Below the pieces are notes generated by a model that worked only from the letters and a program-made list of their open reading frames with translations, did no database searches and was not told the origin of the DNA. Shown here in pieces: positions 18,354 through 35,620 of a stretch of DNA of 45,603 nt. The stretch spans positions 1-45,603 of the forward strand of contig JAPPFC010000007.1 of assembly GCA_028824015.1 (NCBI GenBank), written 5' to 3'. This stretch comes from a bacterium. GTDB lineage: Bacteria > Actinomycetota > Acidimicrobiia > Spongiisociales > ZC4RG35. Numbering within the stretch: position 1 is the first letter of the stretch; each line of letters starts with the position of its first letter. Made by a program: the position numbers and the translations under genes.

Positions 18354-20180
18354 CTAAAACTTCCCAGATTCCCTTAGCTTGTCACTGATGCGGTCCTCCA
18401 GGGGGGTCGGGGCCGATGAAGAGATCGGGGTGGTTGTGGCGCCTTCTTCGGAGGCGGCGCGGCGTGCCGACCGTTCCGTTTCGGTGGCTTCCTGGTCGAC
18501 CTCGTTCCCGTCCGCCTCGAAGATGACGCCGTACTCGCTAAATGCCCGCTCGGGTGACAGGATTCCGTTGCGAACATCGCGTGCCGCAAGCTCCGGGTCC
18601 CGGGCGAGAGGGTCTCCCCAGCCGCCGGCGCCTGCCGTCCGGTGAATCAGACGCATCCCTTCTGTAACCCGCTGGGAGAACTTCGACGGCATCAGCACCT
18701 CTTCGTTCTCCGGGCCGAGAAGGTTCAGCGAAGGGGTGCCGGGCCTTCCGGCGCCGATGCCGTAGGGATAGATGGTGGCCCGGTCGGAACGCACGCTCAG
18801 GTCGCATTCCTGTAGGAACGTGTACTCGCGCTGGAGCGAGAGACCGCCCCGGTGGAGACCCGCGCCTCCCGTGTCGGGAATGTAGCCGTAGTGATCGACC
18901 CGGACGGGAAGCGACGACTCGAGCATCTCCACCGGGATGTTGCTCACATTGGCGCCCACGTTCGGTACGCCGTCCTCCCCGTCCTGAAGGGCCTGGCCGC
19001 CCCACGCTCCGGAGATCAGTTCCACCACCGAGAACCGCTCGCCTCCCGGCCTCACCCCTCCCACCGTGACCAGCGACAGCCCGCCGTCGGATGCGCCCAT
19101 CACCCGGTCGGGGAGCGCGGGCGCCAGAGCGCCGAAAATGGCGTCCATCACCCTGAAACCGGTCAGTCCCCGGGTCCCGGTGGCGGCCGGGAGCACGCAG
19201 TTGAGGATGCATCCCCGCGGCGCCTTGACCGTTATCGGCCGGAAGAATCCGGCGTTGTTGGGAATGTCGGACCTCAGCAGGGCACGCATCGCCGCGTAGG
19301 TGTTGGAATGGGTGAACGACAGGGTGTTGTTCAGAGAGGAGCGGACCTGGGGCGAGCTTCCCGTGAAGTCGAGGGTGACTCCTCCATCGCGAATCTCGAT
19401 GGAGACCGCGATGGGCACCGGATCGTCGCGGATGCCGTCGTCATCCAGATAGTCGATGTACGAGTAGGTCCCCTCCGGGAACGTTCTGATCTCCTGTCTG
19501 GTGAGCATCTCCGTGTAGTCCAGGAGAGCCGCCACATGCGCTCGGAACTCCGCCAGTCCGTACCGGCGGATCATCCGATCGAAGGCCTTGACGCCGGTGG
19601 CGCAGGCAACCAACTGCGCGTCGAAGTCTCCCAGGACGATGTCCGGCACCCGGGTGTTGGCGCCCAGCAGGGCGAACACACCCTCCTCACGCCTGCCCCG
19701 CGAGTAAAGTTTCACCGGCGGGATGCGGAGGCCCTCCTGGAAGCACTCCTCCGCATAGGGCGACATGCTCCCGGCCACCATCCCGCCCAGGTCGGCATGA
19801 TGCGCCACGGTCGCCACCAGTCCCACGTACTCCGACTCGAAGAAGACCGGGCGGACCACGAAGATGTCGGGAAGGTGCATGCCGCCGTCGAAAGGATCGT
19901 TGACCATGGCCACATCGCCCGGGTGGAGATCCCCGCGGAAACGCCTCAGAATCGCCGCCACCGCTTCCGGAAGGGCGCCGAGTTGGTTGGGCAGGGTGAC
20001 CCCCTGGGCGATTATCTGCCCGGTCTCGTCACACAGGGCCGTGGAGAAGTCCATGGCGCTCTTCACCGTCTCCGAATGCGATGTCCGAAGAACGCTCACC
20101 GCCATCTCCTCGCAAATTGCCGCCAGACCCTCGCGGATCAGTTCCCGCTCGATGGCGGCTGCTCCCCCGGATGTGGTCAT
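18354..20180 (-). CDS. hyuB: Hydantoinase B / oxoprolinase subunit
   Basis: 608 residues. The N-terminus ELIREGLAAICEEMAVSVLR, then TSHSETVKSAMDFSTALCD, and the motif GDVAMVNDPFDGGMHLPDIF are classic HyuB. Further on, FTGSSPQVRSSLNNTLSFTH, GCILNCVLPAATGTRGLTG and HRTAGAGGWGDPLARDPE follow the family order to the end. HyuB works with HyuA to open five-membered cyclic imides, amides or lactams (hydantoins, 5-oxoproline, N-methylhydantoin), usually with ATP. The start overlaps hyuA by four bases (ATGA). The last 50 residues form a Ser/Thr/Ala-rich, charged tail beyond the usual end of the family. The exact substrate is not decidable. These genes also serve in acetone- and acetophenone-carboxylase-like complexes, but no gamma subunit is present. 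Confidence 0.92.
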   Translation of the reverse strand: MTTSGGAAAIERELIREGLAAICEEMAVSVLRTSHSETVKSAMDFSTALCDETGQIIAQGVTLPNQLGALPEAVAAILRRFRGDLHPGDVAMVNDPFDGGMHLPDIFVVRPVFFESEYVGLVATVAHHADLGGMVAGSMSPYAEECFQEGLRIPPVKLYSRGRREEGVFALLGANTRVPDIVLGDFDAQLVACATGVKAFDRMIRRYGLAEFRAHVAALLDYTEMLTRQEIRTFPEGTYSYIDYLDDDGIRDDPVPIAVSIEIRDGGVTLDFTGSSPQVRSSLNNTLSFTHSNTYAAMRALLRSDIPNNAGFFRPITVKAPRGCILNCVLPAATGTRGLTGFRVMDAIFGALAPALPDRVMGASDGGLSLVTVGGVRPGGERFSVVELISGAWGGQALQDGEDGVPNVGANVSNIPVEMLESSLPVRVDHYGYIPDTGGAGLHRGGLSLQREYTFLQECDLSVRSDRATIYPYGIGAGRPGTPSLNLLGPENEEVLMPSKFSQRVTEGMRLIHRTAGAGGWGDPLARDPELAARDVRNGILSPERAFSEYGVIFEADGNEVDQEATETERSARRAASEEGATTTPISSSAPTPLEDRISDKLRESGKF

Positions 20181-22288
20181 GACGAGTCCTCCTCGATGAT
20201 CACGCTCTGGGACCGGTCCCGGAACACCCGGTAGCCGGGCGGCACCACCGTGGTGGCGTCGTAGTCCTCGACGATCATGGGCGCCTGGCGAGGCGTAGCT
20301 GTGAGATCGCCGCGGCGGAGCACCGGCGTGGGCAACAGGCCGATCTCACCGCCGAAGAAGACTTCCCGCTGGTTCGACTCATCCGGTTGTGAATCGGGCC
20401 GGTTGCCGGCCGGTACGCCCGCCGGACTCTGTTCCCGTATCACCACCAACAGTTGCACGATCTCGGTTGCATTGTTTGTTACGTGTCCATAGGTGTTCAG
20501 GTGCTGCTCAGCGAAGGCCTTTTCCAGTTCCGCCGTCCACGACGACCAGTCGTCGGTGAACGCCGGCAGTCTCACGGGAAGTTCAAAGCCCTGACCCACG
20601 TATCGCATCTCCACCCAGGACTCGAACTCGAATGAGACGGTGTGAAGGCTCCCATGTCCCACTCCCTCCCTCGCCTGCGCCTCCAGTTCCCGGATCTCTG
20701 CTTGGAGTTCAGAGCGGGACAGGCCGGCGGTGCGCCGGAGGAAGGTCTTCTTGGCATGGAACTCCAGCCGGGCCTCCAGCAGGCCAACAGCCGAGAAGAC
20801 CCCGGGCTGGGGAGGCACGATCACCCGGCGGATCCCCAGTTCCCGGGCGATTCCCATCGCATGGACCGGACCGCTCCCCCCGAAGGCGATCAGGGTGAAG
20901 TCGCGCGGGTCCCGGCCCCGCTGGACCGAGACCGACTTGATCGCCCGGATCATGCTGGCGTTGGCGATCAGATGAGCGCCGTAGGCAGCGACCGGGATGT
21001 CGAGACCCAGGGGAGCGGCCACCTTCTCCTCGAAGGCGGCCCGGGCGCCGTCCACATCCAGCTTGACCGCTCCGTCCAGTAGCCCGCCGGGGTTGAGATA
21101 CCCCAGCAGCAGGTTGGCGTCGGTGACCGTGGGCTCTCGGCCGCCCTTGCCGTAACACACCGGACCGGGGTCGGCGCCGGCCGAGGAAGGACCCACCTTG
21201 GGAGCCCCGGCTGGATCGATCCACACGATGCTGCCTCCCCCGGCGCCGACCTCGGCGAGGTCGATGAAGGGCACGCTCAGCGCGTAGCCGCCTCCGCTCC
21301 TCAGGCGACTGCCGGCCGACATCGCCGACGCCACCTCGAACTCGGCGGTGAAGTGCGGTTCGCCACCCTCCACCAGGGCGGTCTTGGCGGTGGTGCCGCC
21401 CATGTCGAAGGTGATGGCGTTGTCCACTCCCAACGATCGAGCCAGCCCGCTCGAGGCGATCACCCCCGCCGCGGGCCCTGACTCTACGACGTATGCGGGT
21501 CGCTCGGCTGCCGCCTCACTGGTCATGACCCCTCCGTTGGACTGCATGATGAGCAATGGGGCTGTCACGTCCAACTCGTCGAGCTTTCCCCGGAGCGCCT
21601 CGAGGTAGGAGGCCACCACCGGCCTGACGTAGGCGTTGAGCACGGTGGTGCTGGTCCTCTCGTACTCGCGGATCACGGGCAGAACCCGGTGGGAGAGCGA
21701 GGTCCAAACATCGGGGTGCTCCCTGGCAAGCATCTCGCCGATGGCCGTCTCGTGGGAGGGATTGGCGTAGGAGTGGATGAGGCTCACCGCGATCGACTCC
21801 ACCCCCAGTTCGACCAGCGCCTCCACCTTCCGCCGGGCGTCGTCGATATCCAGGGCGGTGACGACCTTGCCGTCAACCCCCACTCGTTCGACGACCTCCA
21901 AACGACGGGAACGTTCCACCAGCGGCTCGGGCTTCTGCCAGGTCACGTCGTACAGCTTGGGGACCCGCAGTCTTCGCAGCTCGAGCACATCGGCGAACCC
22001 CGCCGTGGTCAGCAGACCGGTGAGAGCGCCCTTTCGTTCCAGGATGGCATTGGTCGCCACGGTGCTCCCATGCACCACATCTCGGGTGTCGGCCGGCTCG
22101 ACGTCGTGAGACTCGATGATCTCGCGGATCCCATCGACCACGCCTTCACTGAAGTCCCGGGGGGTCGACAGCAGTTTGTAGGTGTAGATGTCACCGCCCG
22201 CGCTGGTGACCACCACGTCGGTGAATGTCCCTCCCACGTCAACGCCGATTCGTGACTCCTCTGGCGGTCGGGGGCCGGAAGCGCTCAT
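20177..22288 (-). CDS. hyuA: Hydantoinase A / oxoprolinase ATPase subunit
   Basis: 703 residues. RIGVDVGGTFTDVVVTSAGG is the ASKHA ATP-binding phosphate-1 loop. GSTVATNAILERKGALTGLL, then SLIHSYANPSHETAIGEML, NAYVRPVVASYLEAL, FDMGGTTAKTALVEGG (phosphate-2) and GAGGGSIVWIDPAGAPKVGP are the HyuA landmarks in the expected order. The C-terminal part is the usual beta-rich domain. It activates the cyclic amide by phosphorylation for ring opening by HyuB. The weak ribosome site before the ATG suggests modest expression or a leaderless message. The upstream region contains an imperfect palindrome at 22405-22421. The pair lies head to tail behind the ImmA-like gene on the same strand, about 150 bases apart. 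Confidence 0.93.
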   Translation of the reverse strand: MSASGPRPPEESRIGVDVGGTFTDVVVTSAGGDIYTYKLLSTPRDFSEGVVDGIREIIESHDVEPADTRDVVHGSTVATNAILERKGALTGLLTTAGFADVLELRRLRVPKLYDVTWQKPEPLVERSRRLEVVERVGVDGKVVTALDIDDARRKVEALVELGVESIAVSLIHSYANPSHETAIGEMLAREHPDVWTSLSHRVLPVIREYERTSTTVLNAYVRPVVASYLEALRGKLDELDVTAPLLIMQSNGGVMTSEAAAERPAYVVESGPAAGVIASSGLARSLGVDNAITFDMGGTTAKTALVEGGEPHFTAEFEVASAMSAGSRLRSGGGYALSVPFIDLAEVGAGGGSIVWIDPAGAPKVGPSSAGADPGPVCYGKGGREPTVTDANLLLGYLNPGGLLDGAVKLDVDGARAAFEEKVAAPLGLDIPVAAYGAHLIANASMIRAIKSVSVQRGRDPRDFTLIAFGGSGPVHAMGIARELGIRRVIVPPQPGVFSAVGLLEARLEFHAKKTFLRRTAGLSRSELQAEIRELEAQAREGVGHGSLHTVSFEFESWVEMRYVGQGFELPVRLPAFTDDWSSWTAELEKAFAEQHLNTYGHVTNNATEIVQLLVVIREQSPAGVPAGNRPDSQPDESNQREVFFGGEIGLLPTPVLRRGDLTATPRQAPMIVEDYDATTVVPPGYRVFRDRSQSVIIEEDSS

Positions 22289-22441: not shown

Positions 22442-23443
22442 TTACCAGCCGCCCAGCCGGTCCATTTCGTCCCAGATGGCCGACTCAGAATCCTCCACTG
22501 GAGGAAACTGGCTCAGTCCCGACATGGACTCAGGGGAGACTGCCAGGACCCGGGCAGCCTGGACTGGGGTCATCACCCCTTTGGTCAGGGCGGCACAGAC
22601 CAGTTGCAGCATGGGGCGGGGAGCGGCGGCCAGCGGGGGAGGGTTGGCGCCGCGGCCCCGGTCCACGGGATTGGGAGAGTATCCCAGCCCCGGCGCCATG
22701 CCGCTGGGGGAGGCCTTTCCCATCTCCCGGTAGCTCTTCTCGGAGATCAGACCGGATTGGCGCAGCCGGACCGCCACCAGCGCATAGCTCACCCCGAACA
22801 TGCGTTGGAGGTGAAGGGCGATCACCGGATGGGAGGGGTCCACGTCCTTTCCCAGGCTTCCCACCGCTTTGCGGAGGGCGGTGTCGGGAACCAGGAGTTG
22901 GGCTGCAAACCGGACGGCGAAGCGTTGATGGGGTCCGTCGGGCACCGAGAACCACACGTCTCGCAGGTGTGAGTGGCAGAAGGCCTGACCCAGTTGGGCG
23001 GCCAGGGCAAACAGATGACGACCGAGGTCCAGTTGGGAGTTCACCACCGCACAGAATCCGATGGACCGATGGTTGAAGAAGAACCCCGAGTGCCGCTCTC
23101 CCAGGGGGAGGCGAAACACCAGGGCGTGTTGAGCCGCCAGAGCCAGGAGGTGATCGGCGATCGGTCCCTCACCCCAGCCGAGCGCCGTACGGACTTCCTG
23201 CGCCAGACGGGGCGCCTCGGTCGGATCGGGGTGGGAGAGCAGAGCCGGAGGAGGCAGAGGGCTTTCCCCTCGTCCGGGTAGGTCGGCGCCCATGATGGCC
23301 AACAGTTCCTCATAGGACTGGGCCAGTTCGGCGAAGCGGGTCACGGAGGTCCGGAAGGCGTCGTCCGGCGCGAAATCGGCGGAACCGAGGATCCTGTCGA
23401 CCAGGCCGAGCACCGCCTCCCGGTCCGCCGGCCAACTGTTCAT
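22442..23443 (-). CDS. ImmA/IrrE-like protein lacking the HExxH motif
   Basis: 333 residues. The central part follows the ImmA/IrrE (M78-like) plan. There is a strand pair ALVFRLPLGERHSGFFFNH, a helix where the metalloprotease motif should be (LFALAAQLGQAFCHSH), then RFAVRFAAQLLVPDTALRKA. A C-terminal helical module VIALHLQRMFGVSYALVAVR, LRQSGLISEKSYREM closes it, as in the XRE-ImmA proteins of actinobacteria. The usual HExxH reads AAQLG here, so zinc binding and proteolysis are probably lost, although a His pair remains just after it (CHSH). The last 90 residues are Pro/Gly-rich and end in a second helical piece with VCAALTKGVMTPVQAARVLAVS. It may act as a sensor or scaffold. The N-terminus has no recognisable helix-turn-helix. 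Confidence 0.65.
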   Translation of the reverse strand: MNSWPADREAVLGLVDRILGSADFAPDDAFRTSVTRFAELAQSYEELLAIMGADLPGRGESPLPPPALLSHPDPTEAPRLAQEVRTALGWGEGPIADHLLALAAQHALVFRLPLGERHSGFFFNHRSIGFCAVVNSQLDLGRHLFALAAQLGQAFCHSHLRDVWFSVPDGPHQRFAVRFAAQLLVPDTALRKAVGSLGKDVDPSHPVIALHLQRMFGVSYALVAVRLRQSGLISEKSYREMGKASPSGMAPGLGYSPNPVDRGRGANPPPLAAAPRPMLQLVCAALTKGVMTPVQAARVLAVSPESMSGLSQFPPVEDSESAIWDEMDRLGGW

Positions 23444-23864: not shown

Positions 23865-24869
23865 ATGAAGAGTAAGAAGCATTTTGCGGCAAAGGCGATA
23901 GTCTTTCTTGTCGCCTTGTCGCTGGTAGCAGCGGCTTGCGGATCCGATGATCCGGAGTCCGATTCTCTCAAGATTGGTTTTTCCGGTCAACCCGACTTCA
24001 CCCAGATCATGAACTTCACATGGATCGACGCGCTGAATGACGAGCACGGCATCGCCGCCGAAGCCGTGATCTTCGAGGGGACCTCACCGCCGTTCCGGGC
24101 GCTGGTCTCCGGTGACGTGGACATGGTGGTGGGACAGGTGCCTCCGGGCATCAAGCTGCGCGCCGAGACGGGAGCTGATGTGGTGATGATCGCTGGCGAC
24201 GTCCGCCAGTCGGACTACATCCTGGTGTCGTCACCGGATGTGACCTCTCTTGAGGACCTGTACGGTCGCCAGATCGGCACCGCCGGTCCGGGCGCGGTGA
24301 GCACCTCGCTGTCGGTGGCCGCACTCTCCCGGGAGAACATCAACATCGATGACATCGAGTTCGTAGAGGTGGGAGGCACCTCCGCTCGGATGGCAGCGCT
24401 GGTGTCGGGCCAGACCGCGGCCGGCGCCGCGCACTTCGCCGAGGGCTTCAACGCGGTGGAGGAAGGACTCCATCCGCTGTATGTGATCGCCGATGCGGTG
24501 GGTCCCTATCTCTTCCACGGGGTGTGGGTCGACCGGGCCTGGCTGGAGGACAACCCCAACCTGGCGCAGTTGGCGATGGACGAGTTCATCGATTCGGTGC
24601 GCTGGGCAGCCAACAACAAGGCCGATTACATCGCGGAGGCGGCTTCCGTCACCGAGGGTCTGTCGGATGCGGCCAAGAGCCGGGCCTATGACGAGTTCAT
24701 TCGGATCGGACTGTTCGCGGTGAACGGCGGTCTCCAGCCCGAACTGCTGCAGGCCACCATCTCCATCGAGCAGGAAGTGGACAACCTTCCGGCCCAGGTT
24801 GAGGATCCCTCCAACTGGGTGGTCACCGACCTGGTGGACGATTACCTGGAGCGCAACGGCACCCAATAG
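23865..24869 (+). CDS. ABC transporter substrate-binding lipoprotein, NMT1/THI5-SsuA type
   Basis: 334 residues from the ATG at 23865, which has GAGGAG upstream; an upstream ATG at 23823 would spoil the signal peptide. The signal sequence ends in the lipobox VAAAC (Cys25). The type II binding fold starts SLKIGFSGQPDFTQIMNFTW and continues with FEGTSPPFRALVSGDVDMVV, a TSLEDLYGRQIGTAGPGAVS lobe-2 entry, and SRENINIDDIEFVEVGGTSA. This is the pattern of NitT/TauT importers of aromatic or small heterocyclic substrates (thiamin pyrimidines, sulfonates, nitrate). It heads the array with ferredoxin, P450, ATPase and two permeases. The ligand is unknown; the THI5-like fold and the oxidative genes downstream favour an aromatic or N-heterocyclic compound. 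Confidence 0.9.
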   Translation: MKSKKHFAAKAIVFLVALSLVAAACGSDDPESDSLKIGFSGQPDFTQIMNFTWIDALNDEHGIAAEAVIFEGTSPPFRALVSGDVDMVVGQVPPGIKLRAETGADVVMIAGDVRQSDYILVSSPDVTSLEDLYGRQIGTAGPGAVSTSLSVAALSRENINIDDIEFVEVGGTSARMAALVSGQTAAGAAHFAEGFNAVEEGLHPLYVIADAVGPYLFHGVWVDRAWLEDNPNLAQLAMDEFIDSVRWAANNKADYIAEAASVTEGLSDAAKSRAYDEFIRIGLFAVNGGLQPELLQATISIEQEVDNLPAQVEDPSNWVVTDLVDDYLERNGTQ

Positions 24870-24886
24870 AACCACCGCCGAGACTT

Positions 24887-24917
24887 CCCTCCCGGTAGGG
24901 GTGGCCCGCCGGGAGGG
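24887..24917 (+). promoter_or_regulatory. First intercistronic hairpin after the binding-protein gene
   Basis: The perfect 9-base arms CCCTCCCGG (24887-24895) and CCGGGAGGG (24909-24917) have a 13-base loop, 18 bases after the binding-protein stop. There is no U-run, so it is more likely an mRNA stabiliser or partial attenuator than a full intrinsic terminator. Confidence 0.6.
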
Positions 24918-24929
24918 GGTGCTTCGTGT

Positions 24930-24980
24930 GGGGAGGTGTCCCCGCCGTCTGTGGGCGGAGGCAGCGGAGGACACCTCCCC
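24930..24980 (+). promoter_or_regulatory. Second, nested intercistronic hairpin
   Basis: The perfect 12-base arms GGGGAGGTGTCC (24930-24941) and GGACACCTCCCC (24969-24980) enclose a 27-base loop that itself can form a CCGCC/GGCGG stem. It lies about 30 bases before the ferredoxin start. Together with the hairpin at 24887 it separates the binding-protein message from the P450 genes, and probably tunes the relative amounts of each. Confidence 0.65.
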
Positions 24981-25011
24981 GGGTGGGGCTAGAACCTAGA
25001 AAGGAGTCGCC

Positions 25012-25227
25012 ATGGCTGAAGGCGACCGCATCGAGATCGACTACGACTTCTGCTACCAGAGCGGCGAGTGCGTGCTGTTCGCTCCCGAGGTTTACCGGTT
25101 CGGTGACGACGGGTTCCCCGAAGTGGTGAACGGGGGAGTGGCGGAGACGCCCACGTCGGTGCTGGCCGGGACGGTGGAGAACTGCCCGTCGGGAGCGATC
25201 ACATTGATCCCGGGAGGTGGCGAGTGA
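25012..25227 (+). CDS. Single-cluster (3Fe-4S type) ferredoxin
   Basis: 71 residues, the size of the small ferredoxins that feed electrons to actinobacterial P450s. The cluster residues are Cys14 and Cys20 in DFCYQSGECVLFAPEVYRF and Cys58 in VENCPSGAI. The usual fourth position of a 4Fe-4S cluster (residue 17) is Ser, so a 3Fe-4S cluster is expected, as in P450 partner ferredoxins. The stop overlaps the P450 start codon as TGATG, a strong sign that the two proteins work as a pair. A textbook ribosome site AAAGGAG precedes the ATG. No ferredoxin reductase is encoded in the window, so one elsewhere in the genome must supply electrons. Confidence 0.93.
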   Translation: MAEGDRIEIDYDFCYQSGECVLFAPEVYRFGDDGFPEVVNGGVAETPTSVLAGTVENCPSGAITLIPGGGE

Positions 25228-26456
25228 TGGAAGGCCCGCCGGGCTTCGAGAGCATCACCCTCAGCGGCTACGCGGCGGTCCGTGGGGCGCTCACCAACAA
25301 CGACCTTTCCCGCAGCCTCGACTACGAGCGCTTCGAGAAGGGGAACCTGAAAGAGGACACCCTGTCGGTGCTGCACGGTGCGGAACACCGGGAGCGGCGG
25401 CGTATGGAGAACAGGCTCTTCCGCCGCGACATGTTCGAACTCTATGAGTACGAGTTGTTCCCCGACGTGGTGGAGCACACCCTGGAGGCGTTCGTCGACC
25501 CCGAAGAGTCGGACCTGATGGAGATCGGAGGTCTCTTCTCGGTGGTGCTGGCCTGCCGGATCGCCGGGGTCGATTTCGACCGGAACTCGATCGAGGATCG
25601 CCACCGGCTCCGTTACTTCCTGCACAACTTCGCCCTGGGCGGCGCCATCGACGCGGCCAAGGGCGATCCCGAGGAGATCAAGGCGCAGATGCGGACGGTG
25701 TTCGCCGAGTTCCGCGCAGAGTTCATGACCGAGTCGCGAAAGACCCGGGCCGCCACGGTGGAGCGGCGGGCGGCCGGCGAGGACGTGGATCTCCTCTATG
25801 ACATTCTCACCACCTTGCTGGTGAACCAGGCCGCCTCGGGGATGAGCACCGACCTGATCGAGCGGGAGTCCACCCTGTTCTTCTCGGCCGGTTCCCACAC
25901 CAGCACCCAGACGCTCACCAACACCGCCCACCACCTCTTCGAGTGGTGCCGGGAACATCCCGAGGACCGCCGGCGGGTGGTGGAGGACCCGGCCTTCGCC
26001 CAGCGAGCCGTCCATGAGGCGCTCCGGGTTCGTCCCACCAACCCAGGGATACTGCGCCGGGCGCTGGTCGACACCGAGGTGGCCGGCCGGCCGGTCCGCA
26101 AGGGAGTGGTATGCGTGCTCGACACGATCTCGGCCAACACCGATCCGTCCGTGTACGGGGAGGACGCCCACCTCTTCAATCCCACCCGTGAGGTCCCCGA
26201 CGGGGTCCCCCCCTACGGGATGAGCATGGGAGCGGGGATGCACTTCTGCATCGGCCGCACCCTGGCAGTGGGGTTGCCCCAGCGGCGGGGGGTGACGCCT
26301 CCCGCCAACCACCTGTACGGGATGGTTCCCATCGCCCTACGGGGGGTGTTCGATCGGGGCGTGGGTCCCCACCCGGAGAAACCGCCGCTGCCCGACACCA
26401 AGACCCGACGGTGGACCCGTTGGCTCAGCTACCCGGTGGTGTTCAACGGCGGCTAG
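25227..26456 (+). CDS. Cytochrome P450 with atypical I-helix and heme loop
   Basis: 409 residues, normal for a soluble bacterial P450. The C-helix region is HGAEHRERRRMENRLF. The I-helix is FFSAGSHTSTQTL, with Thr225. The ExxR motif is EALR (264-267), and the heme-thiolate loop is SMGAGMHFCIGR with Cys341. Two positions differ from the family norm. The acidic residue before the I-helix Thr is His224, and the Phe seven residues before the cysteine is Met334. Both positions affect oxygen activation and thiolate shielding, so the chemistry may be unusual. The segment after the heme loop is Pro-rich, without the common LARLE helix (TLAVGLPQRRGVTPPANHLY). It is coupled to the ferredoxin by a TGATG overlap. 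The substrate is presumably the compound imported by the same array. Confidence 0.92.
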   Translation: MEGPPGFESITLSGYAAVRGALTNNDLSRSLDYERFEKGNLKEDTLSVLHGAEHRERRRMENRLFRRDMFELYEYELFPDVVEHTLEAFVDPEESDLMEIGGLFSVVLACRIAGVDFDRNSIEDRHRLRYFLHNFALGGAIDAAKGDPEEIKAQMRTVFAEFRAEFMTESRKTRAATVERRAAGEDVDLLYDILTTLLVNQAASGMSTDLIERESTLFFSAGSHTSTQTLTNTAHHLFEWCREHPEDRRRVVEDPAFAQRAVHEALRVRPTNPGILRRALVDTEVAGRPVRKGVVCVLDTISANTDPSVYGEDAHLFNPTREVPDGVPPYGMSMGAGMHFCIGRTLAVGLPQRRGVTPPANHLYGMVPIALRGVFDRGVGPHPEKPPLPDTKTRRWTRWLSYPVVFNGG

Positions 26457-26505
26457 GCGCCAGCCGTAGCAGTAACGGGAAGTAGTGTTCGGATCGAGGT
26501 GCTAG

Positions 26506-27264
26506 ATGCTGTCTATACGGTCGGTTGACAAGCGATTCTCCCTGGACGGGCCGCTGGTGCTGGACAGGGTCAACATGGAGGTCCGCAATGGGGAATTCGT
26601 CTCCCTGCTCGGCCCGAGCGGGTGCGGCAAGACCACCTTGCTCAAGATCGTGGCGGGTCTCCTGCCGGCCACGGGGGGAGGGGTCTACCTTGAGGGGGAG
26701 GAGAGCACCGAGCCCTCCCGGGAGAAGGCGATGGTGTTCCAGCACTTCAACCTGCTTCCCTGGAGGACCGCCATCAACAACGTCGCCTACGGCCTGGAGG
26801 TGCAGGGAGTGGCCAAGGCCGAGCGGTTGGAGACCGCCGCCCGCTTCCTCAAGTTGCTGGACCTGGACGGCTATGAGGACCACTACCCGTCGCAGATCTC
26901 GGGCGGGATGAAACAGCGGGTGGGGCTGGCCCGGGCGCTGGCCACCGAGCCGCGATTGATGCTGATGGATGAGCCGTTCGGGGCGCTCGACGCCCTCACG
27001 CGGGAGTACCTGCAGGACGAGTTGGCCCGGATCGCCGCCTCCCAGGACCTGACCGTGCTGTTCGTCACCCACTCCATCGACGAGGCGATCTATCTCTCCG
27101 ACCGGATCGTGGTGATGGGGAACAACCCCGGCCGGATCCTGGTGGAGTATCCCGTGCCGTTCGAACGGCCCCGCGTCTCAACGGTGGTGCGGGCCGATCC
27201 GCGTTTCGCCGAACTGCGCAACCAGGTGTGGGTGCTGCTGGAGGAGGAAAAGAGCGGGCGATGA
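26506..27264 (+). CDS. ABC transporter ATP-binding protein, NitT/TauT (SsuB/TauB) type
   Basis: 252 residues. Walker A is GPSGCGKTT, the Q-loop is MVFQHFNLLPWRTAINNVAY, the signature is ISGGMKQRVGLARAL, Walker B is LMLMDEPFGALDALTREYLQ, and the switch His is in FVTHSIDEAIYLSDRI. The phrase LLPWRTAINNV and the ending VMGNNPGRILVEYPVPFERP are typical of TauB/SsuB/ThiZ-like ATPases. It drives the two permeases encoded next, as a heterodimeric channel. The stop overlaps the first permease start by four bases (ATGA). It sits 50 bases after the P450 gene. Confidence 0.95.
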   Translation: MLSIRSVDKRFSLDGPLVLDRVNMEVRNGEFVSLLGPSGCGKTTLLKIVAGLLPATGGGVYLEGEESTEPSREKAMVFQHFNLLPWRTAINNVAYGLEVQGVAKAERLETAARFLKLLDLDGYEDHYPSQISGGMKQRVGLARALATEPRLMLMDEPFGALDALTREYLQDELARIAASQDLTVLFVTHSIDEAIYLSDRIVVMGNNPGRILVEYPVPFERPRVSTVVRADPRFAELRNQVWVLLEEEKSGR

Positions 27265-28028
27265 CCACCCTGTCGCCCGAGAGCGGACTGCTGGCCCGGG
27301 TTCCGCCCCGGGTGGTGAGGATCGCCTCGGTGGTGGTGGTGGTCCTGTCCTGGGAGATCGCCGGCCGGGCGGCGCCGCGGTGGGCGTCCTATCCCACCGA
27401 GGTCTTCGCGGCGTTCCTGGACAACCTCGACCGGATCATCGAAGCCTTCGTCGAGACCTTCAAGGCGGTGGGAGTCGGCTACGCCATCTCGGTGGCCGGA
27501 GGGGTGCTGATCGGGTTCGGGATGGCCCGCATCCGGGTGGTGAAGGTGGCCCTGGACCCCTACGTGGCGGTCCTCTACTCCACGCCCCGGATCACCCTCA
27601 TCCCCCTGGCGATCCTGCTGATCGGGATCGGGTTCAACCTGCGGGTGCTGATGAGCGTCCTGGCTTCGATCTTTCCCATGATCATCAACACCTACGCAGC
27701 GGTGGACTCTGTGTCGGCGGAGTTGGAGGAGACCGCCCGTTCTTTCACCGCCAGCCGGTGGAGCATCACCCGGACAGTCCTGATCCCCGGGGCCATCCCC
27801 GGGATCTTCGTGGGGATGAGAGTGGGCATCATCCGGGCGCTGGTGGGGGTGATAGTGGCCGAGATGACCGCCGGCGCCGCCGGAGTGGGGGCGTTGCTGC
27901 TGGTGTTCGGCCGGTTCTTCCAGTCCGAGAAACTGTTCGGCCCGGTGTTGCTGCTGGGCCTGGTGAGCATCCTGATGACCCGGGGGCTTTCGTACCTGGA
28001 GAGGAAGTTGGCGCCATGGCAAGACTGA
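27261..28028 (+). CDS. ABC transporter permease 1, NitT/TauT type
   Basis: 255 residues with six or so membrane helices. The cytoplasmic EAA loop reads ELEETARSFTASRWSITRTV, then LIPGAIPGIFVGMRVGIIRALVG, the family pattern of BPD_transp_1 permeases of SsuC/TauC. The segment YSTPRITLIPLAILLIGIGF before it is also characteristic. The start ATG at 27261 is chosen because it overlaps the ATPase stop as ATGA. The stop lies inside the next permease gene (13-base overlap). It forms half of the membrane channel. Confidence 0.92.
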   Translation: MTTLSPESGLLARVPPRVVRIASVVVVVLSWEIAGRAAPRWASYPTEVFAAFLDNLDRIIEAFVETFKAVGVGYAISVAGGVLIGFGMARIRVVKVALDPYVAVLYSTPRITLIPLAILLIGIGFNLRVLMSVLASIFPMIINTYAAVDSVSAELEETARSFTASRWSITRTVLIPGAIPGIFVGMRVGIIRALVGVIVAEMTAGAAGVGALLLVFGRFFQSEKLFGPVLLLGLVSILMTRGLSYLERKLAPWQD

Positions 28029-28798
28029 AGCCCGAGCGCCGGCGGGCGATCTTCGACTGGGCGTTGCGGATCGGGTTCGCCATCGTGCTGCTGGCGGCCT
28101 GGGAACTCTCCACCCGGGCGCAGAGCCGCGCCCTGGCCGCCCCTCCCTCGGAGATTCTCATCGCCTTCTGGGAACTCACCTTCGTAGAGGGCGTGATCTT
28201 CTCCGAGACCCTGGTGACCGCCCGGGCCTTCTTCATGGGATACGGGGCGTCGATAGCCATCGGGCTGCTGGTGGGCATGCTGATGGGCCGCTCGCGGCTG
28301 GCCGAATACGTGCTGGAGCCCTACGTCACCCTGATGTACGCCCTCCCGTCGATCGCGTTGATCCCGGTGCTGGTGATCTGGTTCGGCATCAACGACCAGA
28401 TCAGGATAGTCCTGGTGATCCTGGCCTCGGTGTTCCCGATCATCTACAACACGGCCACCGGCGTGAAGAACGTCGACGAGGAGTTGGTCGAGGTCGGGAG
28501 GTCCTTCTGCGCCACCCGGCGCAAGATCGCCACCTCCATAGTGCTCCCCGCCGCCCTGCCGCTGATCTTCGCCGGACTTCGCATCGGGCTGTCGCATGCC
28601 CTGGTGGGAGTGATAGGCGCCGAGATCATCGTGGTGATCACCGGCCTGGGAGGACTGGTGATCAGGTACGCGGACAACTTCCAGATGGCCAACATGTTCG
28701 TACCCATCATCTTCATCGCCACCCTGGCGGTGCTGATCACCGCGGGAATGAACCGTTTCCAGACCGTCTTCCGCCGCTGGGAAGTGCAGGACGAGTGA
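28016..28798 (+). CDS. ABC transporter permease 2, NitT/TauT type
   Basis: 260 residues starting MARLKPERRRAIFDWALRIG; the frame is open far upstream but that part is only a shadow of the previous gene. The EAA loop is ELVEVGRSFCATRRKIATSIVL, and the preceding strand is YALPSIALIPVLVIWFGIND. It is a paralogue of permease 1 in organisation, so the transporter has a heterodimeric channel instead of the single permease of SsuABC. A 13-base overlap with permease 1 and a 4-base GTGA overlap with the flavin enzyme gene behind it show tight coupling. Confidence 0.92.
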   Translation: MARLKPERRRAIFDWALRIGFAIVLLAAWELSTRAQSRALAAPPSEILIAFWELTFVEGVIFSETLVTARAFFMGYGASIAIGLLVGMLMGRSRLAEYVLEPYVTLMYALPSIALIPVLVIWFGINDQIRIVLVILASVFPIIYNTATGVKNVDEELVEVGRSFCATRRKIATSIVLPAALPLIFAGLRIGLSHALVGVIGAEIIVVITGLGGLVIRYADNFQMANMFVPIIFIATLAVLITAGMNRFQTVFRRWEVQDE

Positions 28799-29808
28799 GG
28801 CGCAACGACGCGCTTTCCCGCACCGAGAGGGGGATGACGTTCGGGGTGATGCTTCCCCATTTCGGACGGGAGGCCTCCCGCGGCCTGCTGCTCGAAGGAG
28901 CGGCGCTGGCCGAGCGCCTCGGCTATGACGCACTGTGGGTGCGGGACCACCTGATCTGGACCCCCCATCGCCACGAGGGCGCCGACCTGACCTTCCTGGA
29001 CGCCACCCTGACCCTGGCGGCGGTGGCGGGGGTTACCGATCGGATCAAGCTGGGGACCGCGGTGCTGATCCCCATTCGCTGGCCGCTCAAGAGCGCCAAG
29101 GAGTTGATGTCGCTCGACTTCCTGGCGGGGGGCGGAAGGGTGGTGGCCGGGATCGGCGCCGGGCACTTCGGTGCGGAGATCCGGGCTGCGGGGCTCGACC
29201 CGGATCGGAAGATCGAGATCGTTGAGGAGACCATGCGCATCTGGCGCCGGGCCTTCACCGAGGAGCAGGTGGACTTCTCGGGCGAGATGTTCGAAGCGGA
29301 CGGGGCGGTGATGCATCCCCGCCCGCAAGGGGGCCTGCCCATCTGGTACGGGGGCACCACCCGGGCGGCGGTGCGCCGGGCGGCGCGGTGGTGCGACGGG
29401 TGGCTTCCGGGGGGAACGCCGTTCCCGACCTTCGACGACCGGCTGGCGTATCTGCGGGCCCTCGAGGCGGAATCGGGGAGGCCTCCCTGCGTGGTGGGGG
29501 TGATACCCCGGCTGCGGATAGCCCGGACCAGGGCAGAGGCGCGGGCCGGGCTGGACATCGAGGCGCTCACCACCTCGTCGGAGGGGAGCAGGCACTGGGT
29601 CCATCCGCCCGGCGGGTACCGTGACTTCGACGACCTGCGAGGGGCTTTGGTGGCCGGCGACATCCCCGAGATCGTGGATCGGGTGGGCGACTTCGACGAG
29701 CGGGGCGTGGATCACTTCCTGGTGGATCTGCGCTCGGACTTCCACCGCTTCGAGGAACTGCTGGAATTGTTCGCCTCCGAGGTGATTCCGCATTTCCGTC
29801 GCCGGTGA
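28795..29808 (+). CDS. LLM-class flavin-dependent oxidoreductase 1
   Basis: 337 residues from the GTG at 28795 (GTGA overlap with the permease), or 324 from the ATG at 28834, which aligns better with its paralogue. The luciferase-like barrel shows FGVMLPHFGREASRGLLLEG, YDALWVRDHLIWTPHRHEGA, LGTAVLIPIRWPLKSAKELM, GRVVAGIGAGHFGAEIRAAG and WYGGTTRAAVRRAARWCDGW. Members use FMNH2 or F420 to oxidise or reduce small organics; monooxygenases of this class cleave C-S or C-N bonds or open rings (for example RutA on uracil). It is co-encoded with the importer and P450, so it probably acts on the imported compound. A flavin reductase is not encoded nearby; F420 use is equally possible in actinobacteria. 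Confidence 0.9.
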   Translation: MRRNDALSRTERGMTFGVMLPHFGREASRGLLLEGAALAERLGYDALWVRDHLIWTPHRHEGADLTFLDATLTLAAVAGVTDRIKLGTAVLIPIRWPLKSAKELMSLDFLAGGGRVVAGIGAGHFGAEIRAAGLDPDRKIEIVEETMRIWRRAFTEEQVDFSGEMFEADGAVMHPRPQGGLPIWYGGTTRAAVRRAARWCDGWLPGGTPFPTFDDRLAYLRALEAESGRPPCVVGVIPRLRIARTRAEARAGLDIEALTTSSEGSRHWVHPPGGYRDFDDLRGALVAGDIPEIVDRVGDFDERGVDHFLVDLRSDFHRFEELLELFASEVIPHFRRR

Positions 29809-29945
29809 CCGGATGCCGCCCGACACCGCTCTTTCACCCGTCGGCAAGGCGCAGGCCGGTTAATCTTGAACGAGAAAGCTGGCCGTATCGAGCCTGAACG
29901 GGACGTTATAGGTCGGCGCCCAGATAGGAAAGGACACCAGGGTAG

Positions 29946-31382
29946 ATGAGCGACAAGACCACACGCATCACGGGCGGGACGATTCAGACGCCGTCCGGAG
30001 GCGCCGAGACCGACCTGTTGATCCGGGGGGAGAAGGTTGCGGCACTGCTGGATCCCTCCAGCCGGATCTCGGCCGACCGCGAGATAGACGCCGCGGGGAA
30101 GTGGGTTCTACCCGGGCTCATCGATCTCCATGCTCACACCCGATCACCCGGATACGAGCAGAAGGAGGACTTCCTCACCTCATCCCGGGCCGCGGCGGCG
30201 GGCGGGTACACGACCTATGTGGACATGCCCAACGTGGAGCCTCCCACCGTAACCGTGGAACAGTTCGAGGAGAAGCGGGCGGTGGCCGACCGGTTGTGCG
30301 TGGTCGACTGGGGTCACTTCGTGGGGCCCACCAGGCTGGAGGAGATTCCGAAGCTGGCCGCGGCGGGAGCCACCGGTTTCAAGTTCTTCCAGGTCACCGG
30401 GGGGTATCCCCATGATCCGAGGCTGGCCATCGCCGACCCCGCCCGCCTGCTGGAGACTTTCTCGGCCATCGCGGAGACGGGTCTTCTGTGCGTGGTGCAC
30501 CCCTTTGCCCAGACGCTCTTCGAGAGCCTCTATCACCAGGAGGTGGCGAAGGGAAGGCCCGGAGACATCCACACGTTCAGCGACGTCTACACCCGGGACA
30601 TCGTGTGGCGGCTGGCCGTCGGCATCCTGTTGGAGGTCCAGCGGGAGACCCGGATGCGGATGCAGGTGGTCCACACCCACGCTCCCGGGAGCTTCCGCCT
30701 CCTCGCCCAGGCCAAGGCGGACGGGGTGCCGGTGACCGTGGCGACCGACCCCAAATACTTCCACCTCACCGAAGAGGACATCGCAAGTCAGGGAGCCCGC
30801 GCCATACCGGGAGGAGCGGTCACCCGCGATCCGGACCGGATGGCCGCCATCTGGGAGGCCCTGGACACCGGCGTCATCGACATAATCGATTCCGACCACG
30901 CTCCCCACCTGCTGGAGGATCTGCCTCTGATGGAGGAGGATCCGCTGATCGGGCCGTTCGGTTCTCCCCACTACGAGGACCTGCTGTCGCTGATGCTCAC
31001 CGATGTCGCAGCGGGCAATCTCAGGTTGGGTCGGCTGGTACACGCCTTGACCGAGGCGCCCGCCCGGATTCTGGGTATCTACCCGAGGAAGGGAGCGCTG
31101 CTGCCCGGTTCCGACGCCGACCTGGTGCTCGTGGACCCCGACGCCGTCCACCGGCCGCAGGACGGGCAGATGGAGTGCAAGAGCAACTGGACGCCCTACC
31201 ACGGCCGGGACCTGGTGGGAAAGACCGTGTTGACCATGCTCCGGGGGACGGTGATCTTCGAGAACGGCCAGGTGACCGCCGAGCCGGGTTACGGCCGGTA
31301 CATCTCGGGGGTCCCACAGGAGCCCGACCCGAACCAGGCCGCCGGCATGCATCCGGGACTGTCCCTTCGGCCCCGGTCGTGA
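29946..31382 (+). CDS. Cyclic amidohydrolase (dihydropyrimidinase/allantoinase/dihydroorotase family)
   Basis: 478 residues. The binuclear metal site is complete: His62/His64 in GLIDLHAHTRSPG, the carboxylated Lys146 in GATGFKFFQVTG, His185 in LCVVHPF, His243/245 in VVHTHAPGSF and Asp317 in IDSDHAPH. The order and spacing match the dihydroorotase/allantoinase/hydantoinase group, which opens cyclic amides and ureides such as dihydropyrimidines, hydantoins and allantoin. The GxDADLVLVDPD region near the end is the usual C-terminal beta sandwich. It is flanked by two LLM flavin enzymes, so one of these may produce a cyclic amide that this enzyme then opens. The gap of about 137 bases upstream could hold its own promoter. 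Substrate not decidable. Confidence 0.9.
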   Translation: MSDKTTRITGGTIQTPSGGAETDLLIRGEKVAALLDPSSRISADREIDAAGKWVLPGLIDLHAHTRSPGYEQKEDFLTSSRAAAAGGYTTYVDMPNVEPPTVTVEQFEEKRAVADRLCVVDWGHFVGPTRLEEIPKLAAAGATGFKFFQVTGGYPHDPRLAIADPARLLETFSAIAETGLLCVVHPFAQTLFESLYHQEVAKGRPGDIHTFSDVYTRDIVWRLAVGILLEVQRETRMRMQVVHTHAPGSFRLLAQAKADGVPVTVATDPKYFHLTEEDIASQGARAIPGGAVTRDPDRMAAIWEALDTGVIDIIDSDHAPHLLEDLPLMEEDPLIGPFGSPHYEDLLSLMLTDVAAGNLRLGRLVHALTEAPARILGIYPRKGALLPGSDADLVLVDPDAVHRPQDGQMECKSNWTPYHGRDLVGKTVLTMLRGTVIFENGQVTAEPGYGRYISGVPQEPDPNQAAGMHPGLSLRPRS

Positions 31383-31431
31383 TCCGGCCGATGGATCGCG
31401 CCGAGCTGACGGAATCGGGGAGGAGGCTGCC

Positions 31432-32400
31432 GTGAAATTCGGCGTGCTCCTGCCGCATTTCGGGGAGTGGGCCTCGCGGGAGACCCTGATCGACAACGCC
31501 CCGGTGATCGAACAGATGGGGTTTGATTCACTGTGGGTGCGGGACCACCTGGTGTGGCAGCCCCACGAGATGGAGGGAGAGGACCGGACTTTCCTCGAGC
31601 CGCTGATGACCCTGGCGGCGCTGTCCTCGGTCACCACCCGGATGATGTTGGGGACCGCGGTGCTGATCCCCATCCGGTGGCCGCTCAAGCTGGCCCAGAA
31701 CCTGGCCACTCTCAGCTTTCTCTCGGGTGGGCGGGTGATGGCCGGGATGGGACTGGGCAGCAACGAAGCGGAATTCGCCGCCGCCGGCCTTGACCGGGGC
31801 CGCCGCATCCCGATCCTGGAGGAGACCCTGGAGATCTGCCGACGGGTGTGGGCGGAGGACCACGTGTCCTACCGGGGAGAGGTCTTCGAGTTCCGGGACT
31901 TCACCCTCAGGCCCAAACCGGCCGCGCCGATTCCGTTTCTCTACGGCGGCAGCACCCGGGCGGCGGTGCGGCGAGCGATGACCCTGACCGAGGGATGGAT
32001 ACCGGGCCGGATTCCCATCGACACCCTGCGGGACCGGCTCTCGTATCTTCACCGGTTGTCGGAGGAGCACAGCAAGAAGATCCTGCTGGGCACCATCCCC
32101 CTGGTCCTGGCCGACCCGGATCGGCGCCGGGCCCGCGAATCGATCGACGTGAAGGCCCTGGGGGTCAGTTCCGCCGGCGCCCGGCACTGGGTGACCCCCG
32201 CCTCGGGAGGGTTCAATACGGTGGACGACCTGGAGGGACTGCTGGTGGTCGGCGACCGATCCGATTGCCTGCGCTCCATGGAAGCCTTTGCCGACCTGGG
32301 CCTGGAACTGGTGATCCTCGATGTCCGCCTGGGTTTCGGTGAGTACATGCAGCAGTTGGAACGCCTGGCCGAATGGGTGCTGCCCGAGTTCGGGGACTGA
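31432..32400 (+). CDS. LLM-class flavin-dependent oxidoreductase 2
   Basis: 322 residues from a GTG. It is collinear with the flavin enzyme at 28795 over its whole length: KFGVLLPHFGEWASRETLID, DSLWVRDHLVWQPHEMEGED, LGTAVLIPIRWPLKLAQNLA, GRVMAGMGLGSNEAEFAAAG, YGGSTRAAVRRAM. The shared blocks around VRDHL, LGTAVLIPIRWPLK and STRAAVRRA show recent paralogy, yet the middle and end differ enough for a different substrate or a heteromeric pair. It follows the cyclic amidohydrolase by 49 bases and closes the array. Cofactor (FMN or F420) cannot be told from the sequence by eye. Confidence 0.9.
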   Translation: MKFGVLLPHFGEWASRETLIDNAPVIEQMGFDSLWVRDHLVWQPHEMEGEDRTFLEPLMTLAALSSVTTRMMLGTAVLIPIRWPLKLAQNLATLSFLSGGRVMAGMGLGSNEAEFAAAGLDRGRRIPILEETLEICRRVWAEDHVSYRGEVFEFRDFTLRPKPAAPIPFLYGGSTRAAVRRAMTLTEGWIPGRIPIDTLRDRLSYLHRLSEEHSKKILLGTIPLVLADPDRRRARESIDVKALGVSSAGARHWVTPASGGFNTVDDLEGLLVVGDRSDCLRSMEAFADLGLELVILDVRLGFGEYMQQLERLAEWVLPEFGD

Positions 32401-32411
32401 CCGCCGGGGCG

Positions 32412-32540
32412 CTAACCGCCTGTCGCACGGGTTGGCCGATCCGGCGTGGACCTGCAGGACTTTGACTGGATAGCCTGCCGGAAGCCGATGATCCCCGCCT
32501 CGCCGATGCCCTTCACACCCAGGTCGTTCTGGATATATAA
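32412..32540 (-). pseudogene. Probable remnant of a xanthine dehydrogenase-family molybdenum subunit
   Basis: The minus-strand frame ending at 32412 reads YIQNDLGVKGIGEAGIIGFR and then loses similarity before a stop. GVKGIGEAGIIG closely matches the G-x-KGxGEAGxxG segment near the C-terminus of the large molybdopterin subunit of xanthine/CO/aldehyde dehydrogenases, where GE is the active-site glutamate. Nothing else of that roughly 750-residue protein is present. I infer a gene tail left by deletion, in the 220-base gap before mmsA. The resemblance covers only about 20 residues. Confidence 0.4.
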
Positions 32541-32625
32541 TTCCAAGGCCGACGCCGTCTCGCGGTTATGCCCCGGTACAGGTTTGTAAGCGAGCGTCTG
32601 AGTTCTTGAACGGAGGAGAGCAGTG

Positions 32626-34119
32626 ATGAACACGATCACACATTGGATCGGGGGCGCTCCCTGGACGGGTGCCTCAGACAGGACAGGACCGGTCTACAAC
32701 CCGGCCACCGGACAGCAGACGGCTGCCGTGGCATTCGCCGACGAGGCGGCGATCGACGCCGCAGTGTCGACCGCCAAGGAGGCGTTCACCGAGTGGGGCC
32801 GAACTCCGATCACCAGGCGCCAGAACATCATGTTTGCGTTTCGAGAACTGATGGCATCCCGCCGGCTCGACATGGCAAGGCTGATCACTGCGGAACACGG
32901 AAAGACACTCGACGATGCCCTGGGCGAGGTGCAACGTGGCCTCGAAGTCGTGGAGTTCGCCTGCAATATCGCCCATCTCCTCAAAGGGGAATACTCCGAG
33001 CAGGTCTCTACCGGTGTCGACACATTCACCACGCGACAGCCTCTGGGCGTCGTGGCGGGCATAACGCCGTTCAACTTCCCGGCCATGGTACCCATGTGGA
33101 TGTATCCGATAGCCATCGCCTGTGGCAACACCTTCATCTTGAAGCCGTCCGAGAAAGACCCTTCGGCGTCGGTTCTGGCGGCGGAGTTGTTCGCCGAGGC
33201 CGGACTGCCGGACGGGGTGTTCAACGTGGTTCACGGCGACAAGGTGGCGGTGGATGCGCTCTTAACCCATCCTGATGTAGCCGCCGTCTCCTTCGTCGGG
33301 TCCACGCCGATCGCTCGCTACGTGTACGAGAAGGGGACCAAGCACGGCAAGCGGGTCCAGGCCCTGGGTGGGGCCAAGAACCACATGGTGGTCCTGCCCG
33401 ACGCCGACATGGACCTGGCCGCCGACTCGGCGGTGTCCGCCGGGTACGGATCCGCCGGGGAACGGTGCATGGCGATTTCGGTGGTCGTCACCGTGGGCGA
33501 TGCCGCCGACGCCCTGATTCCGAAGATAGAGGAGCGGATCGCCGACCTCAAGGTGGCGCCCGGGTTCGATGAGGGATCCGAGATGGGGCCCCTCATCACC
33601 AAGGAAGCCCAAGACCGTGTCGCCGGATATGTCGATGCCGGGGAGGAGGCAGGCGCCAGGCTGGTGGTCGACGGCCGGGACTTCAAGGTCGACGGCCACG
33701 AAGACGGCTTCTTCCTGGGACCCACCCTGTTCGACCAGGTGACCCCTGATATGTCGGTGTACACCGACGAGATCTTCGGGCCGGTCCTGTCGACCGTGCG
33801 GCTCGACTCCTACGGCGAGGCCATCCAGTTGATCAACGACAATCCGTTCGGGAACGGGACGGCCGTGTTCACCAGTGACGGCGGCGCTGCCCGCAAGTTC
33901 CAGAACGAGGTGCAGGTGGGCATGGTCGGCATCAACGTGCCGATCCCGGTCCCTCTGTCGTTCTACTCCTTCGGCGGCTGGAAGAACTCGATCTTCGGGA
34001 CCCATGCCATCTACGGGCCCGAGGGCGTGCACTTTTATACCAGGCAGAAGGTCATAACCAGCCGGTGGGCGGACCCGATGCACCGGGGAGTCGACCTCGG
34101 CTTCCCCAGGAGCGACTAG
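32626..34119 (+). CDS. mmsA: CoA-acylating methylmalonate-semialdehyde dehydrogenase
   Basis: 497 residues from the ATG at 32626; a GTG three bases earlier is in frame. GGAGGAG lies at good distance upstream. It belongs to the aldehyde dehydrogenase superfamily: VVAGITPFNFPAMVPMWMYP (typical of MmsA, with PMWM), LKPSEKDPSAS, FVGSTPIARYVYEKGTKHGK, LGGAKNHMVVLPDADMD and the catalytic Cys in GSAGERCMAISVVV. The KRVQALGGAKNHMVV phrase and the absence of the usual Glu before it separate MmsA from other members. It converts malonate or methylmalonate semialdehyde with CoA and NAD to acetyl- or propionyl-CoA, in valine, beta-alanine, uracil or inositol breakdown. That would suit a pathway ending in beta-alanine-like fragments from the neighbouring cyclic-amide genes. 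Confidence 0.95.
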   Translation: MNTITHWIGGAPWTGASDRTGPVYNPATGQQTAAVAFADEAAIDAAVSTAKEAFTEWGRTPITRRQNIMFAFRELMASRRLDMARLITAEHGKTLDDALGEVQRGLEVVEFACNIAHLLKGEYSEQVSTGVDTFTTRQPLGVVAGITPFNFPAMVPMWMYPIAIACGNTFILKPSEKDPSASVLAAELFAEAGLPDGVFNVVHGDKVAVDALLTHPDVAAVSFVGSTPIARYVYEKGTKHGKRVQALGGAKNHMVVLPDADMDLAADSAVSAGYGSAGERCMAISVVVTVGDAADALIPKIEERIADLKVAPGFDEGSEMGPLITKEAQDRVAGYVDAGEEAGARLVVDGRDFKVDGHEDGFFLGPTLFDQVTPDMSVYTDEIFGPVLSTVRLDSYGEAIQLINDNPFGNGTAVFTSDGGAARKFQNEVQVGMVGINVPIPVPLSFYSFGGWKNSIFGTHAIYGPEGVHFYTRQKVITSRWADPMHRGVDLGFPRSD

Positions 34120-35451: not shown

Positions 35452-35620
35452 TGCGTTCCCCCAGGTCGGCATGGATAAAACAGTGCCCATGAGGGACTCT
35501 AGCTTTTCGCCTGCTTACCAGTACCTCCAGTTGAGGGAGGAGTTACAGCCATTGTCTCCGCCACAACCCCAACACCTCGTTGTACAGTTCCGGACACATC
35601 GCTAACAAAGGCAGGCGTCG

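Follow-up and report, generated by a model that had tools for sequence, protein, structure and literature searches.

A run of nine genes in the draft genome (2.9 Mb, 95% complete) of an uncultured actinobacterium may encode a catabolic route for an imported small nitrogen heterocycle or cyclic amide. The genes occupy positions 23865 to 32400 of the window, the whole stretch of 45,603 nucleotides that was analysed, which is part of contig C10. Profile searches of the window place all nine on the forward strand, each with a clear Pfam identity, in the order and at the coordinates given by the original prediction: binding lipoprotein, ferredoxin, cytochrome P450, ATP-binding cassette (ABC) ATPase, two permeases, a luciferase-like oxidoreductase (LLM1), a cyclic amidohydrolase, and a second luciferase-like enzyme (LLM2). 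They form two modules: A, from the binding protein through LLM1; and B, the amidohydrolase and LLM2. The cluster is a new arrangement of known enzyme families. Its valuable part is the LLM-amidohydrolase pair, which recurs across phyla and is more general than the cluster first flagged.

In the proposed route, to which we give a little less than an even chance, the NMT1-type ABC transporter would import the compound, and the P450 with its own ferredoxin would hydroxylate it, most likely at a carbon next to the ring nitrogen. One or both LLM enzymes, using cofactor F420, would then, through hydride transfer, convert the hemiaminal or alcohol into the carbonyl of a lactam or imide; this step is modelled on the F420 glucose-6-phosphate dehydrogenase, which takes a hemiacetal to a lactone. 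The cyclic amidohydrolase would open the ring by hydrolysis, enzymes of the M20 or HyuAB type could provide further hydrolysis in trans, and a semialdehyde dehydrogenase would yield acetyl- or propionyl-CoA. The cofactor, the order of reactions, and the substrate class are what we infer from the genes. Import followed by ring opening had already been suggested for this locus, soundly, because the association of transporter, LLM, and amidohydrolase recurs across phyla. The original prediction knew of no named pathway with this gene set, and none was found here.

The LLM-amidohydrolase pair across phyla

A scan for the amidohydrolase, with one genome per species, yielded 25 loci, and a tree was built from 23 members and 11 comparators. 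The clade (support 100/100) spans Actinomycetota, Chloroflexota, Myxococcota, Acidobacteriota, Bacillota, and Nitrososphaerota, with a partial member in Armatimonadota. It is rare: of 396 genomes sampled from the phylum, 1 has it at a strict threshold. No plasmid-borne relative was found at 1e-60. One carrier, Streptosporangium violaceochromogenes (L059), is in culture.

Neighbours were called at 27 loci, leaving out one distant homologue (L049). In 15 of these an LLM gene is the immediate same-strand neighbour of the amidohydrolase, and in 21 one lies within 7.5 kb; other neighbours include ABC ATPases (15), cupins (12), binding proteins (7), and M20 hydrolases (7). The naive chance of an LLM neighbour, taken from the 29 LLM matches in the window's own genome, is about 2%, making 15 by chance very improbable, although the loci are not independent of one another. 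Moreover, pairwise divergence of the LLM enzymes is correlated with that of the amidohydrolases (Mantel r 0.73, permutation p 0.0002, n 13). The transporter belongs to the same picture: the Chloroflexota locus reads binding protein, ATPase, permease, permease, amidohydrolase, LLM, and the Nitrososphaerota locus reads LLM, amidohydrolase, then binding protein, permease, ATPase, permease. Both LLM1 and LLM2 fall inside one 12-row clade (support 92/92) that also holds the LLMs standing next to amidohydrolases in other phyla; this shared placement links modules A and B. A dehydrogenase matching TIGR01722 lies near the LLM or amidohydrolase in three further loci (L058, L067, and L078) and marginally in a fourth (L076).

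Module B is old and patchy, and the core of the cluster (transporter, oxidoreductase, and amidase) is found again, without a name, in distantly related bacteria and archaea. Judged by eye from sequence, molybdenum-hydroxylase-type genes also stand near related amidohydrolases. A broader proposal, which we regard as doubtful, is a general and so far undescribed F420-linked route by which carboxylated cyclic amides are opened and which has spread by horizontal transfer among Actinomycetota, Chloroflexota, Myxococcota, Armatimonadota, and Nitrososphaerota. At its core would stand a hydride transferase that uses F420, together with an amidohydrolase intermediate between hydantoinase and dihydroorotase, and the oxygenating enzyme that primes the ring would vary: a P450 in this cluster, molybdenum hydroxylases in others. 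F420-producing bacteria carry dozens of LLM genes without known substrate, and an LLM clade associated in several phyla with a single amidohydrolase and a single type of transporter is a tractable set for substrate assignment. If the proposal is true, ring opening of nitrogenous organic matter would join the known roles of F420.

Separately, a more distant amidohydrolase-LLM pair stands beside xanthine-dehydrogenase-like genes in the window's own genome and in G002, another genome of the genus (L046, 9658-16242; L053, 8044-14319).

Cofactor, substrate class, and enzyme families

LLM1 (28795..29808, with an alternative start ATG at 28834) and LLM2 (31432..32400) are 48% identical in alignment. 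They score 170.6 and 178.2 bits, respectively, against the F420-subfamily model TIGR03619, over its cut-off of 166.9. Among solved structures, the best match to LLM2 is an F420-dependent hydroxymycolic acid dehydrogenase, and cofE, a gene for F420 synthesis, is present in the window's own genome and in 17 of the 19 carrier genomes tested. Both enzymes are accordingly placed in the scheme as predicted F420 users. The co-occurrence of cofE is not the strong proof it might seem: cofE is found in 7 of 148 genomes in the phylum of one carrier (G044), but in 137 of 145 in its class, so co-occurrence within a lineage says little. Its support lies instead in several lineages that are all F420 producers.

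The LLMs resemble the F420-dependent luciferase-like hydride transferases Fgd, fHMAD, and Adf (PMC8498797) in matching their subfamily over the cut-off and in the presence of the F420-synthesis gene. They differ in that the part of that article consulted describes no characterised member acting with a cyclic amidohydrolase, and in that the cofactor here is predicted. Literature on F420 with hydantoinase, and on sponge Acidimicrobiia with F420 and P450, was also sought, and nothing was found. Elsewhere in the genome, an unusual array of six tandem LLM-type genes, all on one strand, fits within 5.2 kb (G000:C16:3520-8687).

The first reading of the locus had followed RutA: the LLMs would be flavin mononucleotide (FMN) monooxygenases that open the ring with oxygen, and the amidohydrolase would act on the product. 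The LLM superfamily does include FMN monooxygenases, and NCBIfam FMN models match the LLMs weakly. However, TIGR03619 is their best match and the only one over a cut-off; LLM1 reaches 32.1 bits against the RutA model (TIGR03612, cut-off 498.3), and RutA is absent from the best 25 matches of LLM2. No flavin reductase is found among the cluster genes. The analogy is doubtful because the LLMs match the F420 subfamily and most carriers hold the F420-synthesis gene, and the best solved relative of LLM2 points the same way; a RutA-like route seems improbable. In the Rut pathway and in 4-hydroxypyridine degradation (kpi genes, PMC7356986), as proposed for the cluster, an oxidation step precedes the action of an amidohydrolase-superfamily enzyme on the ring; KpiC is reported to open the ring in an oxygen-dependent reaction. 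Those systems employ FMN or flavin adenine dinucleotide monooxygenases, and neither has a P450-transporter set of this kind.

The amidohydrolase (29946..31382; PF01979) had been assigned to the dihydropyrimidinase/allantoinase family. As to fold and metal ligands the assignment stands. A structure model (pLDDT 94.3) is nearest to the L-hydantoinase of Arthrobacter aurescens, 1gkr (Z 50.3, rmsd 1.9 over 445 residues, 33% identity), followed by allantoinase, dihydropyrimidinase, and dihydroorotase; and the ligands H62, H64, K146, H185, H243, and D317 are invariant in 23 homologues. As to the families themselves it does not: scores fall below the cut-offs for allantoinase AllB (247.9 bits; TIGR03178, 357.85) and for dihydropyrimidinase/D-hydantoinase (220 bits; TIGR02033, 393.25). 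The enzyme is likewise under the cut-offs for dihydroorotase (221 bits; TIGR00857, 279.05), with which it has only the HxHxRxPG and MPN motifs in common, and for the hydantoin-5-propionate hydrolase model.

Those two motifs bear on the substrate. Arg66 of HxHxRxPG is invariant, and both Arg66 and Asn96 (of MPN) are common to the window enzyme and a dihydroorotase (PyrC, L105) that sits between genes reading by eye as a pyrB-like aspartate carbamoyltransferase and carA. (A homologue on contig C44 of the window's own genome was set aside as comparator, not being pyrC.) An allantoinase (L035) carries Asn at the Arg66 site, and 1gkr carries neither residue. In dihydroorotase, these Arg and Asn residues hold the substrate carboxylate. 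Their presence suggests that the substrate here is a carboxylated cyclic amide. The window enzyme therefore stands between two known types. It matches 1gkr in fold and in all metal ligands, including the lysine, but has Arg66 and Asn96, a clade of its own, and LLM genes as genomic partners; it shares motifs with PyrC, but is separated from it by a long branch in the tree and by a different gene context.

Could the cluster instead be a variant of reductive pyrimidine breakdown, in which a dihydropyrimidinase analogue leads to a beta-amino acid that is processed by a transaminase and a semialdehyde dehydrogenase? The cyclic amidohydrolase family, and the TIGR01722 dehydrogenase found downstream and in other phyla, would fit. 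Set against this are the low dihydropyrimidinase score and the two LLMs and P450, which have no role in that breakdown. Moreover, in a family member (L022) a dihydropyrimidinase-like gene beside an aminotransferase forms a separate locus. This explanation appears very unlikely.

The transporter comprises the NMT1/THI5-type periplasmic binding lipoprotein (23865..24869; PF09084, 43.5 bits), a NitT/TauT-type ATPase (26506..27264; PF00005), and permeases 1 (27261..28028) and 2 (28016..28798, start ATG 28016), both PF00528. These are the families of TauABC, SsuABC, and ThiXYZ, but every cluster component is under the equivalog cut-offs for taurine, sulfonate, and thiamin-precursor transporters (TauB, 244.7 against 357 bits; SsuA family, 47 against 163.5). 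The best NCBIfam matches of the ATPase (TauB, SaoA, and NtrCD) are all below cut-off, and only the broad PF09084 cut-off is reached in the NMT1 tests. Nor does the fold of the binding protein single out a ligand: its AlphaFold model (pLDDT 88.8) matches 3qsl, TauA, ThiY, and SsuA best, and the mixture of TauA, SsuA, ThiY, and Thi5 at 12-20% identity allowed no call. Another binding protein of the genome, a 733-residue open frame with two NMT1 matches of equal score 963 bases apart (G000:C1:50499-52058), suggests a duplicated binding-protein domain.

One pathway or two

Genomes were searched by family and by region, and two other members of the genus, G002 and G004, are compared here with the window's own genome (G000). 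The original prediction was to be abandoned, as set beforehand, if its gene order was conserved in no related genome. G004 (also L054) has every gene in the same order, from HyuA as far as the beginning of the dehydrogenase, with identities of 87-99%, and conservation in this second species takes the arrangement beyond chance. In G002, however, the order is split. All genes of module A, from the binding protein through LLM1, are kept together there (80-96% identity), and neither the amidohydrolase nor LLM2 accompanies them; next come a short-chain dehydrogenase/reductase, a biotin carboxylase, and two 3-hydroxyisobutyrate-dehydrogenase-like genes. The amidohydrolase-LLM2 pair of G002 is found on contig C58 together with an M20 hydrolase, and two further LLMs and an ABC transporter lie opposite.

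The window's own genome holds a second amidohydrolase, 85% identical, on contig C50 (G000:C50:74102-79852, L039), in a cluster of the C58 type without LLM2. (That cluster contains an ABC transporter, an M20 hydrolase, and two LLMs that flank an alpha/beta hydrolase.) In the tree, the window amidohydrolase pairs with that of G004, and the C50 copy with that of G002. The window copy thus looks like a duplicate that joined module A before G000 and G004 split.

This history leaves room for the main rival explanation: two unrelated neighbouring pathways, A (P450, F420 enzyme, and transporter) and B (amidohydrolase and LLM2), which a recent translocation brought together in an ancestor shared by G000 and G004. 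The separate partners of each module in G002, and the wide distribution of module B without P450, speak for that explanation. Three observations oppose it: among six genomes of the genus, a small sample, three carry both the P450 and the amidohydrolase clade (G000, G002, and G004) and three carry neither (G003, G005, and G006); LLM1 and LLM2 belong to the same LLM clade; and in Chloroflexota a related transporter lies directly upstream of the amidohydrolase-LLM pair. We consider two pathways possible but rather unlikely.

The P450 (25224..26456; PF00067, 67 bits) has the hallmarks of its family: AGSHT of the I-helix at 222, EALR at 265, and the heme Cys motif GAGMHFCIG at 336. Its residue 225, within AGSHT, is His, where most P450s carry an acid before Thr. 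The preceding gene encodes a P450-type single-cluster ferredoxin of 71 residues (25012..25227; PF06902/PF13459) with three cysteines, Cys14, Cys20, and Cys58. The expectation that P450, LLMs, and amidohydrolase would co-occur holds for amidohydrolase and LLM across phyla; the P450 joins them only in this genus, and P450 and ferredoxin, counted at first in the conserved set, lie in a separable module. With the window P450 as query, none was seen in amidohydrolase loci outside the genus. A conserved partnership for the P450 was also sought and rejected: relatives at 33-43% identity occur in 21 other genomes of the class, and none of ten neighbourhoods inspected contains an NMT1 transporter and amidohydrolase. 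(In L093 the P450 relative has an aldehyde dehydrogenase nearby, and in L092 it has a ferredoxin next to it.) The P450 part was added locally, as an accessory seen with module B only in this genus.

Several points weigh against the single import and ring-opening pathway. Modules A and B are unlinked in G002, and so could serve separate pathways; the loci behind the LLM adjacency are not independent; two carriers lack a cofE match; the cluster contains no ferredoxin reductase; the semialdehyde dehydrogenase has a promoter-like site of its own; and the substrate, the activity, and the use of F420 are predictions.

Layout of the locus and its surroundings

Overlaps of 4-13 bases had been described for most junctions. 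Such overlaps exist (4, 4, 13, and 4 bases), but at only four of the eight; the others are gaps of 142, 49, 137, and 49 bases. The longest gap, between the binding protein and ferredoxin genes (24870..25011, forward strand), contains two strong hairpins (fold -86.6 kcal/mol, z -3.9), a possible attenuator or RNA stabiliser. Hairpins are common where the binding protein is made in excess of the transporter.

A tenth gene continues the run 222 bases 3' of LLM2: a CoA-acylating (methyl)malonate-semialdehyde dehydrogenase (32623..34119, forward strand) that scores 750 bits against TIGR01722 (cut-off 448.5). The promoter-like site 5' of it (32512..32541, forward strand) is of the sigma-70 type, TTCACA-18-TATAAT, matching at 11 of 12 positions.

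Three genes on the reverse strand precede the cluster. HyuA-type (20177..22288; PF01968/PF05378) and HyuB-type (18354..20180; PF02538) subunits of an ATP-dependent cyclic-amide hydrolase are possible associates, the divergent HyuA gene being conserved in G004. The nearest curated model for the pair is caprolactamase, with CapA at 516 bits and CapB at 278 bits, both below cut-off; the pair is another candidate cyclic-amide hydrolase beside the cluster. An M78/IrrE-domain protein (22442..23443; PF06114, 47 bits), kept with the cluster in G004 at 89%, is a possible regulator. Beyond the dehydrogenase, the reverse strand at 34150-35490 encodes another amidohydrolase, unrelated to the first, whose C-terminal part weakly resembles PhnM.

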